A program made the position numbers and the translations under genes. A DNA stretch of 23,926 nt from a virus. Positions 5,801 to 12,915 of this stretch are shown piece by piece. The first letter of the stretch is position 1. Each line of letters starts with the position of its first letter. Below the pieces are notes generated by a model, which did not search any database, was not told where the DNA came from, and was given only the letters and a program-made list of their open reading frames with translations. The stretch spans positions 1-23,926 of the IMG/VR virus record IMGVR_UViG_3300032240_001835, one strand, 5' to 3'.

Positions 5801-7465
5801 TTATAATCCTGTGCCTGATGGTAAAGCAATCGTTCTCATATCTTTAAGGAAAGGCGAGAATGTTGAATCTGAAGATGACATAACAATTTTAATCATATAT
5901 TGATAAAAGGATGTGTAAGAGAATCCATTCACATCACTTACATAACTGACATAATTATTTGCCACATTGTTAACACCAGGTGCAGCTTCATATTCAATGA
6001 TATTGGACATGGAAGTTGAGTATGCTGAACTTCCATTCACAAGTGTCATTAACTGCCAGTTACAATCATCAATTTTTTGTGTATCTTCTCTGGATACAAT
6101 TTTATAATACACAGAAATTTCAGTATTGACTGGTCTATAAGCTGAGAAGAATACACGTAAGTCACCAGAATCATTACCCTCAGATAATGTGATTGGTTGT
6201 GTCAGATATCTTGCATATCCGTTTCCACCAGATTTTGATGTTTCACCATTAATTTGTATAACAGAATTTGAATTAGCTGTAGCAGTAATAGTAACTGTTG
6301 GTGTTGTCAAATATCCAGCACCTTCTGTTGTCACATATACACTAACTATATTTCCCATATAAACATTTGCTGAAACATAAGCTTGTGAGCCCCAAGTAGC
6401 ATCTGGACTAGACACAGAAATTGAAGGTGATGATATTGTACCATTTGCATTTGATAGATAACCAATACCACCGTTTACAAGAATGATATCATTATTGGAA
6501 ATACCCATGTTATTGATACGATATCTTGTTGTATATAAAGCCAAACCATCTTCAGAAATGACTGGACTTACAGTATCATCGGTTGTCGATAATGATGCTT
6601 CCAATATGAAAGAATTGTTTGAAGTGTAATCTAATACACGGCTTAATTTATTATCGTTTAGGTATACATCTGTTGATTTAGGTGTACCATATTTACCTGG
6701 AATAATAGAATTTGGACCATCCGTTAGACCAGAGTTGAGTGTTGTCGTATACTGATAAGTAATTGCTGTTCCAGGCGGTGTAAAATCAGTTGTGGATACA
6801 TTTAAAGCATCATAAATAGCGTTCGATGTGGCCGTTGCCATGTTGGTTTCAATAGTTTTTCTTTGTGGTAGTCCTGCCGGTACCACAAATGGTATTGTTG
6901 CTGCATCTGAAGTGAATTTACATCTATTGATGACAAACATCAAATCTTGTGTCAAATCTGCTGTCCAAGTCAAAGCGTTTTGTGATTCAAATAAATCTCC
7001 AACATATGGAGATTTCGAAATCTTTGTTGGTACCGTTGGTGCTATATCTGTTGGTGCTGCCTTTGATGTAGACAACAATGCAAAATCACTTTGTTTTGCT
7101 GACCACAATGTATAATCACTAGAACTAGACTGAACTACAAACGCATATAAAACATTTGGATTAATGTAGACTGGTGCTGAGAAACTAAATTTTGTCCAAG
7201 TAGCAGAATCTTTATAATGTGGACTTTCTGTTGCATTAATATTTGCAACTACCGATGTTGCAGGCAAAGATACCACAGAATAATCTAATGATGTTCCGTT
7301 TGGATAACCATTTAAAGTTGGAACAATCGAAAGATTGACTGGAATATTTGTAGTAGGCTTTGTTCGGAAAAACAAACAAATGGAACTTAAAAAAGCTCCA
7401 TTAGGATAGTTATTTCCATCAATAATAAAAGTCTGTGCTACAGGATCAATAATTGTCGTTGTCAT
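5801..7465 (-). CDS. Virion structural protein, detached C-terminal half of a DUF4815-type protein
   Basis: 554 residues. The start TTTIIDPVAQTFIIDGNN matches the internal DPLAQTF domain that follows the DUF4815 region in single-chain relatives, including FLSSICLFFRTKPTTNIPV, VPTLNGYPNG, SFSAPVYI, GDLFESQNALTWTADL and QDLMFVINRCKF. The C-terminus (LRVFFSAYRPVNTEISVYYK, then PFLKDMRTIALPSGTG) also matches the end of such proteins. Residues ~325-400 contain two GGIGY / GAGYLTTPTVTI units, the module shared with gp6-gp8. An AAGGA box 5-6 nt before the ATG lies inside the preceding gene's end, so the start is well supported. It probably assembles with the 1672-aa protein to rebuild the ancestral molecule. 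One base separates its stop from the next start. Confidence 0.8.
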   Translation of the reverse strand: MTTTIIDPVAQTFIIDGNNYPNGAFLSSICLFFRTKPTTNIPVNLSIVPTLNGYPNGTSLDYSVVSLPATSVVANINATESPHYKDSATWTKFSFSAPVYINPNVLYAFVVQSSSSDYTLWSAKQSDFALLSTSKAAPTDIAPTVPTKISKSPYVGDLFESQNALTWTADLTQDLMFVINRCKFTSDAATIPFVVPAGLPQRKTIETNMATATSNAIYDALNVSTTDFTPPGTAITYQYTTTLNSGLTDGPNSIIPGKYGTPKSTDVYLNDNKLSRVLDYTSNNSFILEASLSTTDDTVSPVISEDGLALYTTRYRINNMGISNNDIILVNGGIGYLSNANGTISSPSISVSSPDATWGSQAYVSANVYMGNIVSVYVTTEGAGYLTTPTVTITATANSNSVIQINGETSKSGGNGYARYLTQPITLSEGNDSGDLRVFFSAYRPVNTEISVYYKIVSREDTQKIDDCNWQLMTLVNGSSAYSTSMSNIIEYEAAPGVNNVANNYVSYVSDVNGFSYTSFYQYMIKIVMSSSDSTFSPFLKDMRTIALPSGTGL

Positions 7466-7931
7466 TTAATTCCTTCGGTATGTCATTTTCTTTTTCAAGA
7501 ACGTCTAACATATTATTTATTAGATGTTTTACATCTTCGTTTTTTTCTTCACCAAGTAATTTTACCACATCTTTTATGTGTTTATGATTAATTGCACTAT
7601 AAATTGAAAATTGTTCATAAAATGGTTTGTTCAGTATATCCATCTTTTCAATCAATTTTTCACATCTTACATAATATCCAACATTTTCTTCTTCTGTTGA
7701 ATTGTTTCTAAAATCCCTAAGAGATTTTACTTGTTCTTCTGTATAATCACCAATACCATAATGTGTAATATTATAAACAAAACAATTTTCTGCTCGGCTT
7801 AATAGAGTTGTTACACAATGTTCCTCATCACCATGTTCCAAACAATCGGAACAAGCTTCTTTTTGTGCAAAATATTCAGATACACTTATTCCCATATCAT
7901 TTATACAAGTTTTTCCAACATTTCTTAGCAT
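7446..7931 (-). CDS. Small acidic Cys-containing protein with CFI-box-like segment
   Basis: 161 residues if read from 7931, which overlaps the previous gene by 35 nt after a GGTGA box 9 nt upstream; a second ATG at 7895 starts one base after the upstream stop but lacks a good box, so the start is undecided. The product has Cys at 27, 30 and 39 (CSDCLEHGDEEHC), then NCFVYNITHYG...LRDFRN...NVGYYVRCEKL (residues 49-92). This second part has the spacing of CFI-box domains (CFI, YG, L-R-x-F-R, GYY), like the cassette at the end of the 1672-aa protein. The C-terminus is acidic and helical. Its end overlaps the next gene by 20 nt. I cannot name a function; a tail-assembly accessory or minor virion role is inferred from position. 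Confidence 0.65.
   Translation of the reverse strand: MLRNVGKTCINDMGISVSEYFAQKEACSDCLEHGDEEHCVTTLLSRAENCFVYNITHYGIGDYTEEQVKSLRDFRNNSTEEENVGYYVRCEKLIEKMDILNKPFYEQFSIYSAINHKHIKDVVKLLGEEKNEDVKHLINNMLDVLEKENDIPKELNDNDNY
7514..7521 (-). promoter_or_regulatory. Possible late promoter box upstream of the 554-aa gene
   Basis: Minus strand AATAAATA, 7 of 8 with TATAAATA, inside the end of the 161-aa gene and ~48 nt before the ATG at 7465. Spacing would allow a normal leader including the AAGGA box. Chance occurrence in AT-rich DNA is quite possible. Confidence 0.2.
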
Positions 7932-10900
7932 ACTTGGTTGTCACCAAGGCACCAACTGCCATCCATACTGTAATCCATACGAGTGAATTCGGTATAGACA
8001 ATGGATTAAATTTCTTACCCATGACCATATTGGTACCGTTGGTCCATGCCCAATTAGCATAAAGATTCATAAGTTTGTTGTCAGCACGTAATGCTGGTAC
8101 TAGTAATTTAGAACCAATCACTTGATAACCACGGCGGAAACATTCACCCAAAGTCTTATTGTGTAAATATTTTTCACACCATTGAATTAATGTGTCTTTT
8201 TGGTCTTGTTGCCAAATACCTTTATCTGTCAAAGCAGTAGCAATCACACAACATCCGCCACCACCACCTGATGACGCTGGCGCAGTTCTACTTTGATTTA
8301 GAATAACACTTTGTTTATCAATTATTGTGCTTGTATTTTTGGCTCCAACCACGGATGCTGAATAATTAACTTCCTGTGATTTAGTCACCAAACCTTGTGC
8401 GGTAAATTTAGCTTCGGCATATGACGTTTCTGTACCTTTAGCATAGAAGAAGTCGGATACACCTTGTGTAACTACTCGATTATCTAAACGGAAGATTCTT
8501 TCACCAGTATTGAAGTAATTGCCTGGTAAATAGAATATACCACAGATATTACCAATCTCATTGGTAATCAATGGACCAATCGAATAAGCATCACCAGTTA
8601 AATATGAAACATTTGTATCTAATGTAACTGTTTTTGTTGATGTGTTATAGGATTGTACTGTTGCTTTTGTTCCTTTTGCTATAGAAGAAATACCAGTTAT
8701 TGAACCTGAAACAAACCAGAAATCCATACCTGTATAGATATCAGTTGCAGATGCTTTGTTTGGATCCAATTTAACCGTATTTGTATTTGTTCCATTTTCT
8801 GTTGTTAAACCAGAATAGTGTGTTGTGGAATTAACTGTACCACTTACAGAACTAACTGATGCAACACCACTAGTATTAAATGTAGCGGTAACAGCAGTTG
8901 TGCCATATGTTGTTGTACCCATATCATTAATAACATATAAACGTACATTACCATTTGTATAAGTGTACACATCTGCGATGTAACCAGTTGGTACGAATAT
9001 AGAACTCTGTACATAACCAAGTACGTCACCAACATTAAATGTACCACTTACACCTGTTAATTCAATGATATTTGGTTTTCTAATCAAACGAGTAACACGT
9101 TTATCATCAAAGAAAGCGTTCACTTTTGTATTAAACAACAAACCTCTCGATTGGAATAAAATATGTTGTCCACGGATATAAGGTAGAATGCTTATATTTG
9201 TGATATAGTTTGCTGATTGATTGTATGATTGTGACCAATATCCTGTTGTATATTGGTTAGTTTTAACTGCTGTTGTGGTTGCAACAGTATAATTTGTTTC
9301 TTCTTCAACATAACTTGTTGTTTTCTCTGTACCAGGAATTGTTTTCCAGTCAGCAACAGATAATGTTGGATTGCCTTCTAATACATTATTTGTAGAAGAT
9401 GCTTGATACGTTTTTAAATTAGGGTCAATAAACAACAAACCAGGTTGTGCATTGTTATCTACCCAATTGTCCATCGGTGGAGTCAATAAAATTGTTCCGA
9501 CAGAACCAACAACAGCAAATGGATTAACTGAAATTGTACGACTTGCAAGCGGTTGAGATGCAATTTCTTCTTCAGTATACGCAAGAGTATATGATGGAGA
9601 TTGTCCAATTTGTGATGGAAAATAGTACAAAGTGTTAAGTGCTGCTGCTGATAGTTTACCAGAACCATATGTGTTCAACAACTGTTCATTAAATAATGGA
9701 TAATTTTTAACCAACAAAGCAGGCGACAAGTATTGTAACCGTGTGTTGATGGCAGCAGAGAAGTCTGGATTAAATGTGTCAGCAACAGAGAATGTTGAGA
9801 AATCATCAACCAAAAGACCATTTTTAAATCTGTTCAATCCATTTGCATCAGCAATTTGTAAATTTGTTGCTTTTTGTTCTAACAAATTCAAAGAAGCATA
9901 ATACTCCAAATTATTAACACGGGTTTGTAAATCTGTGATTTCACTAAATGCCCATCGTTTATGTGAAATTGGTTGTATGTTTACATTAGATTGTTGACCA
10001 GCAACTTCACCTGGAACATACGCTGTATATGGATCCAATGAAATATTAGCCAATAACAGAGAACCTTCTGGTGGTGTAGGTAAAGCAGGATTAATTGCTG
10101 GTTTACCTTCAATCAATTTAATCGTTTTGTCTTTACCGATAACCAAAACGTCTTTACGGCCCAAATAGTATTGATAATCAGATACAAAAGGAGTTAAATC
10201 TGCAGGCAGAAATAAACCAGAATTGTTTGTGCTTGTTGGTGTTACTTTGTATCTAAATGTAAAAGAACCTTGTGCATTCTTAACAGCAGGCCTAAAGTCC
10301 AAACAATCTTTTAAATCGTAATTTATACGATTTGTTGAGAAATATTTTGGACGCTCTGCAAAACCAACATTAGTATATGATTGTGCTGAGAAATAACCAT
10401 CGCCACCAGAATGTTGATAATAATTAAACAATATCCATAATGATTTTGGTATTGGTGCACCAGGTTTCAATGTAATAAAAGCGTGACCATAATAACTATC
10501 AGTTTGACCATTATTAAATACGAAATTACTTGTTACATCCATTGATGCAGTTGAATAAAAATTCACGTTTGGTGTGGCACCATTTGTATCAATAATCTTA
10601 ACGATATTTTTAACGTCAGAAACATAAAGTTTTTGTTGGTTACCATAATTTAATATGCCAGCAGCTGGAATCCAAACTTGGCCATTCGTTAAATCAACAT
10701 ATGTGTTATTAACAATACCATCTGGACCAGAATAACTTGCAACAGATGTGTTGGTTGTGATTAGTGTTTTTGTTTTTAATACAAAGTTTGTATCATTTGC
10801 ATTGGTTACACTCAATCGTGCATAGATGGTTGCAGCAAACGGCGCCAAATCTAAAGCAGTAAAGGTTACACCATTATTGTCAGAATCGACAACAACAGTT

Positions 10901-12915
10901 CTACCTACTGAAGTAAAATCTATAATTTCACCGGTAGAATTGTCAATGACCACCCAATTTTGTCTGATAGCATCAGCAGATTCTGTTGCACCTGTTCTAA
11001 TAAAATCAAATGTTCCTGTTGCTGATGGATCTATTTGTAAATATCGTTTAGAACCAGTTGAAAAAGAACCAAATGATTGTGCTCTGAATGCTTGGGTCGT
11101 TGTATAAGATGTATCGGTAACAGAAGCGACATATGGATTACCAATAGAACGAATTAGTTCAGGATTGTTAGTTGCAAATAGTTGTGTAGCACCTGATGAT
11201 ATATTGTTTATTTTACCCAAGGTACTCATAACAGCACTAGAAGTTAACACATAAGGTGTTCCTGCTGTTGATTGAACGATTGTTTCAAAATCTGATATAC
11301 CAAATCTTAGTGAGAAAGTATCACTTGCTTGTGGAGTTATATTGAAAGGTATATTTACAGTTGCTGTATGGGTTGAACCATTATAAGAAACGATTTGTCT
11401 TGTATCTCCAGCATCTACACCAGAATCGATAGTCAATGTCACACCTAAATATGCATCTGCAATATTTGAGAATTTTCCACCAGCTGTTGTAAATGTGATA
11501 GTATCCGATGTTGCAGCAGAAACTACACCACTCAAAACTTTATTTTGAACATCATACAGATGAGCTTTATAAGTGTAAGTTTGTGTATTTGCTGTGTTAC
11601 TTGATTGTACATAAGTTAAAGAACGTATGTAACCAGAACCAGCAACTGTTGAAGAATATGTGGTAGAATTGGATGTAATAATATTTGACGTTCCAACTGT
11701 GTGGAAATCTACCGCAGAACCTGTACTGATGTTGAAAAATCCACTATTCAAACCACGTAAATTATCAATGTAGAGATAATTACCATAATCAATAAAATTA
11801 CTATGATTTTGGACTAAATCGGTTGTTCTGGCTCTGTTAGCATTAATTCTGATTGTTGATTGATTTTCAGCACGATAACCTTCAACATAAGCAACACCTG
11901 GACCTATCGATAAAGTATACAAGTCTGGATTAAGTGAATTTGCACTAGGTGTAATCTTGAAATCGTTGACAATATAATCACCATTTGTTTCTTTTGTACG
12001 CTTGGCAAAATAATCATCAATTACAGAATAAACGGTATTATCAACTTGTTTAATAACATTACCTGCATCCAAACGAACCAATTCAATAAATTGGTCATCA
12101 TTACCCAATGTTAATGGTAATGTTGTTAGTGCCAAAGATATTTGATAACGGTCTGCACCTGGAGCCTGATAATTGGATGCACCAACAGCTGGATCCAATA
12201 ATGAATTATCATTAATATAATCAACAACCGTTTCGTTGATTTGCAAACCAACACGATATGTTGGTGTGTTATTGTATTTGTCTAAAATAATTGTATCATT
12301 TTGAACAGAAACAAAATGACCAATTGAATACTTAGTGTAAGTATTATCGGTATTAATTAATTGTGAATAACCATTGACGATATAGAAAATACCATCAGAT
12401 ATTGAAGCAACAGAAGATGAACCTACACCAGTTGAACCACCAGTTGATCCAATGATTGTGGCAGCAAAGTTTGAACCATCGACACAGGTAATAGTCATAG
12501 CATCAGTAAACTGCGTACCTGAAAGATATGTAACAATCAATGTTGGTGGATCACCAGCTTCAACATCTGTTCCTGTTGCTTCTGCTGTCTTAATAACTTT
12601 AGCTAAGATTGTACCAGTGGAATCTGTAATGATTCTGTTTAAAAAATCTTCTGCTGTGATATTTGCATTATCATATTGTTTGTTTAATTTCAAATAAAAA
12701 CAATTCAAGTTTGTGGTTATTTTGCCGCCACTTACAGGAGTATTTTGCTTGAAAATATTATCAGCAAAATTTGAAATTTGATTTTGTAAAATTGTCTGTG
12801 ATTGTGTTAGTTCTCTAGCCTGAACAGCACGACCTGGTTTAAACAATATGCGATGAAAATTCTTTGATGGGTCGAAATCATCGTAATATGGATCAACATT
12901 AAAATTCTGAGACAT
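7897..12915 (-). CDS. Giant DUF4815-type virion structural protein with C-terminal CFI-box-like cassette
   Basis: 1672 residues. The N-terminus (YYDDFDPSKNFHRILFKPGR, VQARELTQSQTILQNQ) is the hallmark of DUF4815-type structural proteins of T4-like and other phages. Further family-like parts are LKDCLDFRPAV (~870) and a helical WAFSEITDLQTRVNNLEYY (~990-1010). Around 1490-1540 (GIFYLPGNYFNTGERIFRLD) the sequence reaches the point where relatives continue into a DPxAQTF domain. Here it turns into five glycines (1550-1554), then CCVIATALTDKG, a GECFRRGYQVI segment, and a hydrophobic stretch ~1645-1660 (LVWITVWMAVGALVTT). The DPxAQTF part is encoded separately at 5801-7465. An AAAGGA box precedes the start. 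By position it replaces T4 gp9/gp10 in the outer baseplate (inference). Confidence 0.8.
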   Translation of the reverse strand: MSQNFNVDPYYDDFDPSKNFHRILFKPGRAVQARELTQSQTILQNQISNFADNIFKQNTPVSGGKITTNLNCFYLKLNKQYDNANITAEDFLNRIITDSTGTILAKVIKTAEATGTDVEAGDPPTLIVTYLSGTQFTDAMTITCVDGSNFAATIIGSTGGSTGVGSSSVASISDGIFYIVNGYSQLINTDNTYTKYSIGHFVSVQNDTIILDKYNNTPTYRVGLQINETVVDYINDNSLLDPAVGASNYQAPGADRYQISLALTTLPLTLGNDDQFIELVRLDAGNVIKQVDNTVYSVIDDYFAKRTKETNGDYIVNDFKITPSANSLNPDLYTLSIGPGVAYVEGYRAENQSTIRINANRARTTDLVQNHSNFIDYGNYLYIDNLRGLNSGFFNISTGSAVDFHTVGTSNIITSNSTTYSSTVAGSGYIRSLTYVQSSNTANTQTYTYKAHLYDVQNKVLSGVVSAATSDTITFTTAGGKFSNIADAYLGVTLTIDSGVDAGDTRQIVSYNGSTHTATVNIPFNITPQASDTFSLRFGISDFETIVQSTAGTPYVLTSSAVMSTLGKINNISSGATQLFATNNPELIRSIGNPYVASVTDTSYTTTQAFRAQSFGSFSTGSKRYLQIDPSATGTFDFIRTGATESADAIRQNWVVIDNSTGEIIDFTSVGRTVVVDSDNNGVTFTALDLAPFAATIYARLSVTNANDTNFVLKTKTLITTNTSVASYSGPDGIVNNTYVDLTNGQVWIPAAGILNYGNQQKLYVSDVKNIVKIIDTNGATPNVNFYSTASMDVTSNFVFNNGQTDSYYGHAFITLKPGAPIPKSLWILFNYYQHSGGDGYFSAQSYTNVGFAERPKYFSTNRINYDLKDCLDFRPAVKNAQGSFTFRYKVTPTSTNNSGLFLPADLTPFVSDYQYYLGRKDVLVIGKDKTIKLIEGKPAINPALPTPPEGSLLLANISLDPYTAYVPGEVAGQQSNVNIQPISHKRWAFSEITDLQTRVNNLEYYASLNLLEQKATNLQIADANGLNRFKNGLLVDDFSTFSVADTFNPDFSAAINTRLQYLSPALLVKNYPLFNEQLLNTYGSGKLSAAALNTLYYFPSQIGQSPSYTLAYTEEEIASQPLASRTISVNPFAVVGSVGTILLTPPMDNWVDNNAQPGLLFIDPNLKTYQASSTNNVLEGNPTLSVADWKTIPGTEKTTSYVEEETNYTVATTTAVKTNQYTTGYWSQSYNQSANYITNISILPYIRGQHILFQSRGLLFNTKVNAFFDDKRVTRLIRKPNIIELTGVSGTFNVGDVLGYVQSSIFVPTGYIADVYTYTNGNVRLYVINDMGTTTYGTTAVTATFNTSGVASVSSVSGTVNSTTHYSGLTTENGTNTNTVKLDPNKASATDIYTGMDFWFVSGSITGISSIAKGTKATVQSYNTSTKTVTLDTNVSYLTGDAYSIGPLITNEIGNICGIFYLPGNYFNTGERIFRLDNRVVTQGVSDFFYAKGTETSYAEAKFTAQGLVTKSQEVNYSASVVGAKNTSTIIDKQSVILNQSRTAPASSGGGGGCCVIATALTDKGIWQQDQKDTLIQWCEKYLHNKTLGECFRRGYQVIGSKLLVPALRADNKLMNLYANWAWTNGTNMVMGKKFNPLSIPNSLVWITVWMAVGALVTTKYAKKCWKNLYK

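Follow-up and report, generated by a model that had tools for sequence, protein, structure and literature searches.

Organization of the locus

The locus considered here raises the question of how a DUF4815-type baseplate protein comes to be encoded in two chains, and what the additional sequence at the joint may do. It belongs to a minus-strand baseplate operon of T4-like type within a 23,926-base virus fragment (the window); the gene order is gp25-gp6-gp7-like-gp8-DUF4815-fibre. Three minus-strand open reading frames make up the locus: 7897–12915 (1672 aa, P0001), 7446–7931 (161 aa) and 5801–7465 (554 aa, P0002). The five-glycine linker, the motif CCVIATAL and the hydrophobic tail that the first-pass annotation had described on the first protein can all be read in P0001 (at 8268–8254 and 8253–8230, with the tail ending at 7900), and about 118 further residues follow GGGGG-CCVIATAL before the first stop. 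The same annotation had placed a 161-aa gene between the two halves. That reading frame is present, but the start of the gene, here called P3, is most likely the ATG at 7895, one base past the P0001 stop, because P3 of the relatives begins there; the predicted product is then 149 aa long (MGISVSEYF...). The gene for the C-terminal part (C-part) overlaps P3 by 20 bases, and an AAGGA sequence is located inside the end of P3, about 7 bases before the P0002 ATG. The features of the locus are collected in Table 1. Elsewhere in the window, downstream of the S74 fibre gene, a 113-aa protein (1669–2010) has a match to the LtfC-like beta-sandwich family (PF23926) just above the cut-off.

Table 1. Features of the split DUF4815 locus (positions in the window)
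Feature	Position	Strand	Support
N-part, DUF4815/VrlC baseplate protein (P0001 residues 1–1549)	8269..12915	-	PF16075, phrog_358, PDB 9EUF
Five-glycine linker	8254..8268	-	read from sequence
Class-A Cys-headed C-terminal tail domain, CCVIATAL to the end of P0001	7900..8253	-	17-tail alignment, AF2, CFI-box profile link
P3, putative tail partner gene, 149 aa (open frame reaches 7931)	7446..7895	-	P3 alignment, 18/18 loci, AF2
AAGGA, likely ribosome-binding site of the C-part, within the end of P3	7471..7475	-	GAAGGAATTAAATG
C-part, separate 554-aa chain (P0002) from DPVAQTF	5801..7465	-	phrog_358 from 1421, PDB 9EUF

Together the two chains make up one VrlC/DUF4815 protein

P0001 matched PF16075 (DUF4815) with an E-value of 1e-61 and 209.5 bits (the curated cut-off is 30) and aligned to positions 5–1408 of the 2056 positions of phrog_358, and the match of P0002 to the same profile begins at position 1421. 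The two chains span successive stretches of phrog_358 and are therefore consecutive parts of one profile. Both also matched the chain of PDB 9EUF, a solved single chain of 1152 aa deposited as a 'DUF4815 domain-containing protein' (E 3e-29 for P0001; E 3e-8 for P0002, over residues 787–951 of the chain). The proposal of the first-pass annotation that the 1672-aa protein carries the DUF4815 half and that the 554-aa protein starts at the DPxAQTF domain is thus borne out. The N-terminus of P0002 reads MTTTII-DPVAQTF, and alignment with the single-chain relatives L010, L037 and L003 (L numbers denote individual loci) places the break just before DPxAQ[ST]F, within a linker that is short and variable. 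Encoding in one chain is usual for this family but does not define it, as many relatives are split, and in the window there are two open reading frames.

P0001 and P0002 together probably represent a two-chain VrlC/DUF4815 baseplate protein of a T4-like phage, with gene order alone indicating the location in the baseplate. VrlC is an integral part of double-layered baseplates, in which it takes the place of T4 gp7 (PMC7029224); apart from that paper, literature searches on DUF4815, the CFI-box and phage gene fission yielded nothing useful. The N- and C-parts match successive regions of the known VrlC/DUF4815 proteins (PF16075, phrog_358, PDB 9EUF and 14 further PDB entries) and the gene order is alike, but the window differs from the single-chain forms in having two chains, an additional domain at the end of the first chain and an additional gene between the two.

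Break points across the family and the origin of the split

Domain profiles indicated that proteins of this family are broken at three different boundaries. The first (B1), between DUF4815 and the next domain, is used in the more distant relatives L016, L017, L019, L024, L025, L029 and L031, and also in L008, L011 and L013; the second (B2), inside the domain that follows DUF4815, in L001, L002, L004–L007, L088 and L090; and the third (B3), before DPxAQTF, in the window group and L111. Breaks at both B1 and B3 leave L116 and L118 in three pieces, and the viral contigs L003, L010, L036 and L037 carry intact forms. A baseplate protein that has repeatedly been cut at differing boundaries yet stays functional provides a natural map of the joints at which it can be opened. 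In L008, L011 and L013 (8142–8871), a gene for a protein of 224–240 aa lies between the DUF4815 part and the next part.

The ends of the N-parts are equally varied. A class-A tail (described below) followed by P3 is found in the window group, a class-A tail without P3 in L088 and L090, a class-B tail without P3 in L111 and L115–L118, and a Hint domain in L005, L007, L019 and L026; other N-parts have a proline-rich end or nothing special. Within the sister group of the window-type loci (L001–L007, L088 and L090), the end is a tail without P3 (L088, L090), a Hint domain (L005, L007) or a short or proline-rich stretch. The Hint assignments differ in strength: L019 and L026 match PT-HINT above its cut-off and end in SHN, and L005 and L007 match Pfam Hint with an E-value of 3e-5, below its cut-off. 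In L005 the Hint joint is at about 7230–7899. A joint module in the C-terminal part of L017 3996–8498 (GGGGGCVVLESFVPL...ILHHN, with GGGGGCVVLES...) was considered as Hint-like by its appearance, had no Pfam match and was not counted.

The combination of a DUF4815 part with a class-A tail, P3 and a DPxAQTF part was found in 18 viral contigs, the window included. All four pieces (N-part, tail, P3 and C-part) gave pairwise dN/dS values of about 0.01–0.21, which argues that no piece is decaying, and this together with the recurrence in independent contigs makes the arrangement more than a chance event. The split is evidently old and under purifying selection, and the earlier view that the protein was divided at a domain boundary with both parts maintained is upheld by the alignment and by these values.

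The direction of the change was judged against wide outgroups, and a fission origin of the window gene is supported by the comparison. Seven of the eight sampled cultured phages (S-RIM2, phiM9, phiD3, phiM19, Vibrio K442, Syn1 and SIOphi) have a single chain, and with the outgroups intact the single chain is favoured as the older state. In the eighth, phage 812, the annotation divides the DUF4815 gene into two CDS that differ in frame (Gp122 and Gp123; L153, NC_029080.1, 1647–5104); the homologous PDB chain has 1152 residues. In a tree built from the DUF4815 and DPxAQTF columns (48 rows), 14 window-type rows, eight B2 rows and the intact L003 form a clade with a support of 99, within which the B2 rows group with L003 with a support of 100. 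The best tree has the window-type rows in basal position and places L003 among the B2 rows, so that L003 would be a re-fusion. Neither a tree with the window-type rows constrained together (AU p 0.44) nor one with B2 constrained to exclude L003 (AU p 0.11) was rejected. The first-pass annotation had stated that its reading would fail if close relatives were all split and the intact forms were separate fusions: the nearest relatives are indeed all split, but the re-fusion of L003 is insecure given the latter AU value, and the outgroups are intact. That the two-chain state is ancestral throughout, with the intact forms as independent fusions, is accordingly something we regard as very improbable. 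This reading is supported by the best tree, where L003, the closest intact form, groups within split relatives; against it, the deep outgroups are intact except for the one annotated record, the solved phage homologue is a single chain, and break points that differ between lineages are more readily explained by fission having occurred repeatedly than by repeated fusions of an ancestral pair.

It had also been proposed that a foreign-looking cassette was inserted at the joint and split the ancestral gene. The foreign appearance was not confirmed: among windows of the same length from neighbouring genes, the codon use of the tail and of P3 falls at the 9th and 18th percentile, and the only unusual composition in the cassette is the low GC content of P3 (0.282). 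Fission as such stands when the gene is compared with single-chain outgroups. One insertion as its cause, giving rise to the two-chain state here, has in its favour the single-chain outgroups and the coincidence of break and cassette in all 18 contigs, and we consider it a rather poor candidate nonetheless: relatives are split at other boundaries without the cassette; L111, broken at this very boundary, has a different tail and lacks P3; unrelated proteins carry the tail and P3 as well; and the codon use is ordinary. The family is better described by recurrent fission with ends that can be exchanged, a model that has no need of a single splitting insertion but is compatible with one.

The tail domain occurs in two classes

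An alignment of 17 class-A tails showed an invariant G-C-C-V--T-A pattern. The AF2 model of the window tail (pLDDT 89.7, pTM 0.81) contains six helices, of which the fifth is hydrophobic. The Kyte-Doolittle value of this helix over 19 residues, 1.55, is borderline for a membrane helix, and in the model it is packed within the domain. Class-B tails (e.g. GGGGGCSIICTKL) were found in 54 viral loci; comparison of the first 60 residues of the two classes gave a score of 35.3, against a maximum of 18.9 in shuffles. They often lack the leading cysteine, and the cysteine four residues further on is kept. A hydrophobic segment is present in every class-A tail (1.46–1.87) and in the class-B tails that are linked to P3. 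The linkers that precede other tails are rich in glycine, proline or arginine. In L119–L121, small proteins without P3 have a Cys-Asn-rich region (NCNCACTYNC...) before a class-B tail. A bacterial relative of class-B tails is found in a Micavibrionaceae MAG, where a protein with a signal-peptide-like start (L151, 3524–4387) ends in the tail GGGKVICGHFYTRG.

Searches of Pfam, NCBIfam and PHROGs gave no match above cut-off for either the tail or P3. Searches of the PDB with both gave no Foldseek match at E <0.001 and no VIA-align match at Z ≥5, which is not proof of new folds. The best viral fold match of the class-A tail was S4S2E0, a protein of 762 aa (probability 0.97, TM 0.62, 20% identity), which on the basis of its length only we take to be gp49 of HMO-2011; the C-terminus of HMO-2011 gp49 was also reached through the class-B profile. 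The gp49 proteins of HMO-2011 and CRP-1 have C-terminal tails like that of the window (in CRP-1 it reads GGYSCYVATALNAKGYW), but the carrier differs, its gene is located beside the portal gene and is not accompanied by P3, and the HMO-2011 tail is without the hydrophobic end (0.82).

P3 is paired with the tail

P3 is all-helical in its AF2 model (pLDDT 80.5). When the P3 profile alone was used for searching, 18 viral loci were retrieved, and in every one of them a tail gene lies directly upstream, with a spacing of -42 to +7 bases (longest open frame). In the reverse direction, P3 is the next gene in 20 of the 22 contigs with a class-A tail, the window included (the L075 contig ends inside P3), and in 23 of the 54 class-B loci. 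L088 and L090 have a tail without P3 in the available contig; these and the many class-B tails without P3 argue that the partner is not always needed. In L039–L048, P3 and a second tail-like domain form one fused protein. Short forms of P3 have no N-terminal Cys motif, so the motif is not essential to the P3 family. No P3 was found in bacterial genomes, a protein search of the phage collection with the window P3 gave no match (its relatives were reached via the tail), and the score of P3 against the tail profile was within that of shuffles.

Sequence comparison shows that the gene was split at a domain boundary, that the split is old, that all pieces are under purifying selection, and that tail and P3 occur as a pair on differing carriers. 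The mechanism that we favour, with confidence no better than moderate, is that of a two-chain baseplate protein whose tethered tail would serve as a docking or anchoring module, with P3 as a co-translated dedicated partner and with both tail and P3 related to the CFI-box. The N-part would end in a Gly-rich tether, the invariant Gly-Cys-Cys and a compact six-helix domain, and P3, a small helical protein, would be made in coupled translation. Both halves would still assemble side by side in the baseplate, as suggested by the location of the break in a variable linker and the retention of both. The tethered tail would dock or anchor its carrier, either to a membrane or to some other protein of the virion; P3 may bind the tail as a dedicated partner, cap or chaperone. 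T4-like phages have pairs of a gp37/gp38-type tail-fibre adhesin and a downstream chaperone gene. In these pairs, as for P3, a small gene lies directly downstream of the gene for a host-facing virion protein, but no similarity between P3 and gp37/gp38-type chaperones was detected.

The tail could also be a self-processing or covalent-linking C-terminal domain, in which case cleavage or transfer of the peptide would take place at Gly-Cys once the particle has assembled, with P3 assisting. Hint domains are self-processing domains in which a peptide is cut or transferred, and Cys-first Hint-type or bacterial intein-like domains occupy the corresponding joints, after a linker, in the same protein of L005, L007, L019 and L026; the glycine and the first two cysteines are moreover invariant in class A. 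Still, we think this unlikely, as the all-helical tail model does not have the Hint fold, the window tail has no match to a Hint or intein profile, and class-B tails are often without the leading cysteine and keep the one four residues on.

Tail and P3 are probably distantly related to CFI-box-CTERM

Against the CFI-box profile, built from bacterial proteins, the class-A tail scored 32.6 and P3 28.6, with maxima of 17.9 and 17.8, respectively, in 100 column shuffles. The direct score of the class-B tail was within the shuffles, so its link to the CFI-box runs through class A. No match of the window tail to the curated model NF041770 was obtained, and P3 reached an E-value of only 0.12. Since the profile scores exceed the shuffles and the window tail has no NF041770 match, class-A tails and P3 are probably distant relatives of the CFI-box domain and not members. 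The CFI-box proteins compared (26 loci, one bacterial phylum) consist of a tether, C-F-I-A-T-A, a helical region and a hydrophobic end with basic residues. The window tail shares with CFI-box-CTERM its C-terminal position after a Gly-rich tether, the start with Cys-hydrophobic-I-A-T-A (CFI-box type Cys-x-I-A-T-A), a helix with a pattern of aromatic and charged residues and the C-terminal hydrophobic segment. It differs in starting with GCC, in the absence of the LRxFRD and YYxxSPP motifs and in the presence of a partner gene. CFI-box-CTERM was found above cut-off in 41 of 148 genomes sampled from one bacterial phylum (that of G011); a single genome, G082, has 37 matches. A paper describing the function of CFI-box-CTERM was not found in our literature search, and the tail and P3 offer a testable handle on it.

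The bacterial proteins also bear on whether the tail is a membrane-active anchor, whose hydrophobic C-terminal helix would insert into a host membrane while the phage assembles or enters, with P3 shielding it beforehand. CFI-box proteins often combine a signal peptide and a Gly linker with a C-terminal hydrophobic segment and basic end, the secreted-type protein of L151 ends in a class-B-like tail, and the hydrophobic segment is present throughout class A and in P3-linked class-B tails. Such a role nevertheless seems improbable, given the borderline hydrophobicity in the window, the HMO-2011 tail that does without the segment and the packing of the helix within the domain in the AF2 model.

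The tail and P3 are carried by differing proteins

Outside the DUF4815 proteins, the tail with P3 was found on Gly-rich carriers (about 490 aa in the L039 type, 564 aa in L087, whose contig measures 374 kb), on a further large protein in L089 and in the cultured cyanophage SynMITS9220M01 (Kyanoviridae), in which gene 028 bears the tail and gene 029 is a short P3. The Gly-rich carriers, among which gene 028 is counted, appear to be fibre-like. The presence of tail and P3 on unrelated carriers marks them as a portable module and not a scar of the DUF4815 gene. In the tail tree, the L087 and L089 tails fall among those borne by DUF4815 proteins and reach 58–61% against the window tail, but their P3 proteins are nearest to that of L112, which follows a class-B tail (53–56%, against about 30% to the window P3). 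These differing affinities suggest that tail and P3 are exchanged separately and yet keep company.

Baseplate genes in pieces and accessory domains at the C-terminus are each of a known kind; what is new is their combination with a portable pair of tail and partner that lies below the cut-offs of the family libraries searched. As a more general and tentative proposal, tail and P3 may constitute a hitherto undescribed two-gene module of tailed phages (freshwater and marine contigs), both CFI-box-related, that would serve differing virion proteins as a shared device for docking, anchoring or processing and would make use of the recurrent fission joints of DUF4815. As the cultured SynMITS9220M01 carries the pair, its function can be tested. 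The tether of the tail in gene 028 of this phage (L068, 2672–4522) is not glycine and consists of a long poly-proline followed by a poly-arginine stretch.
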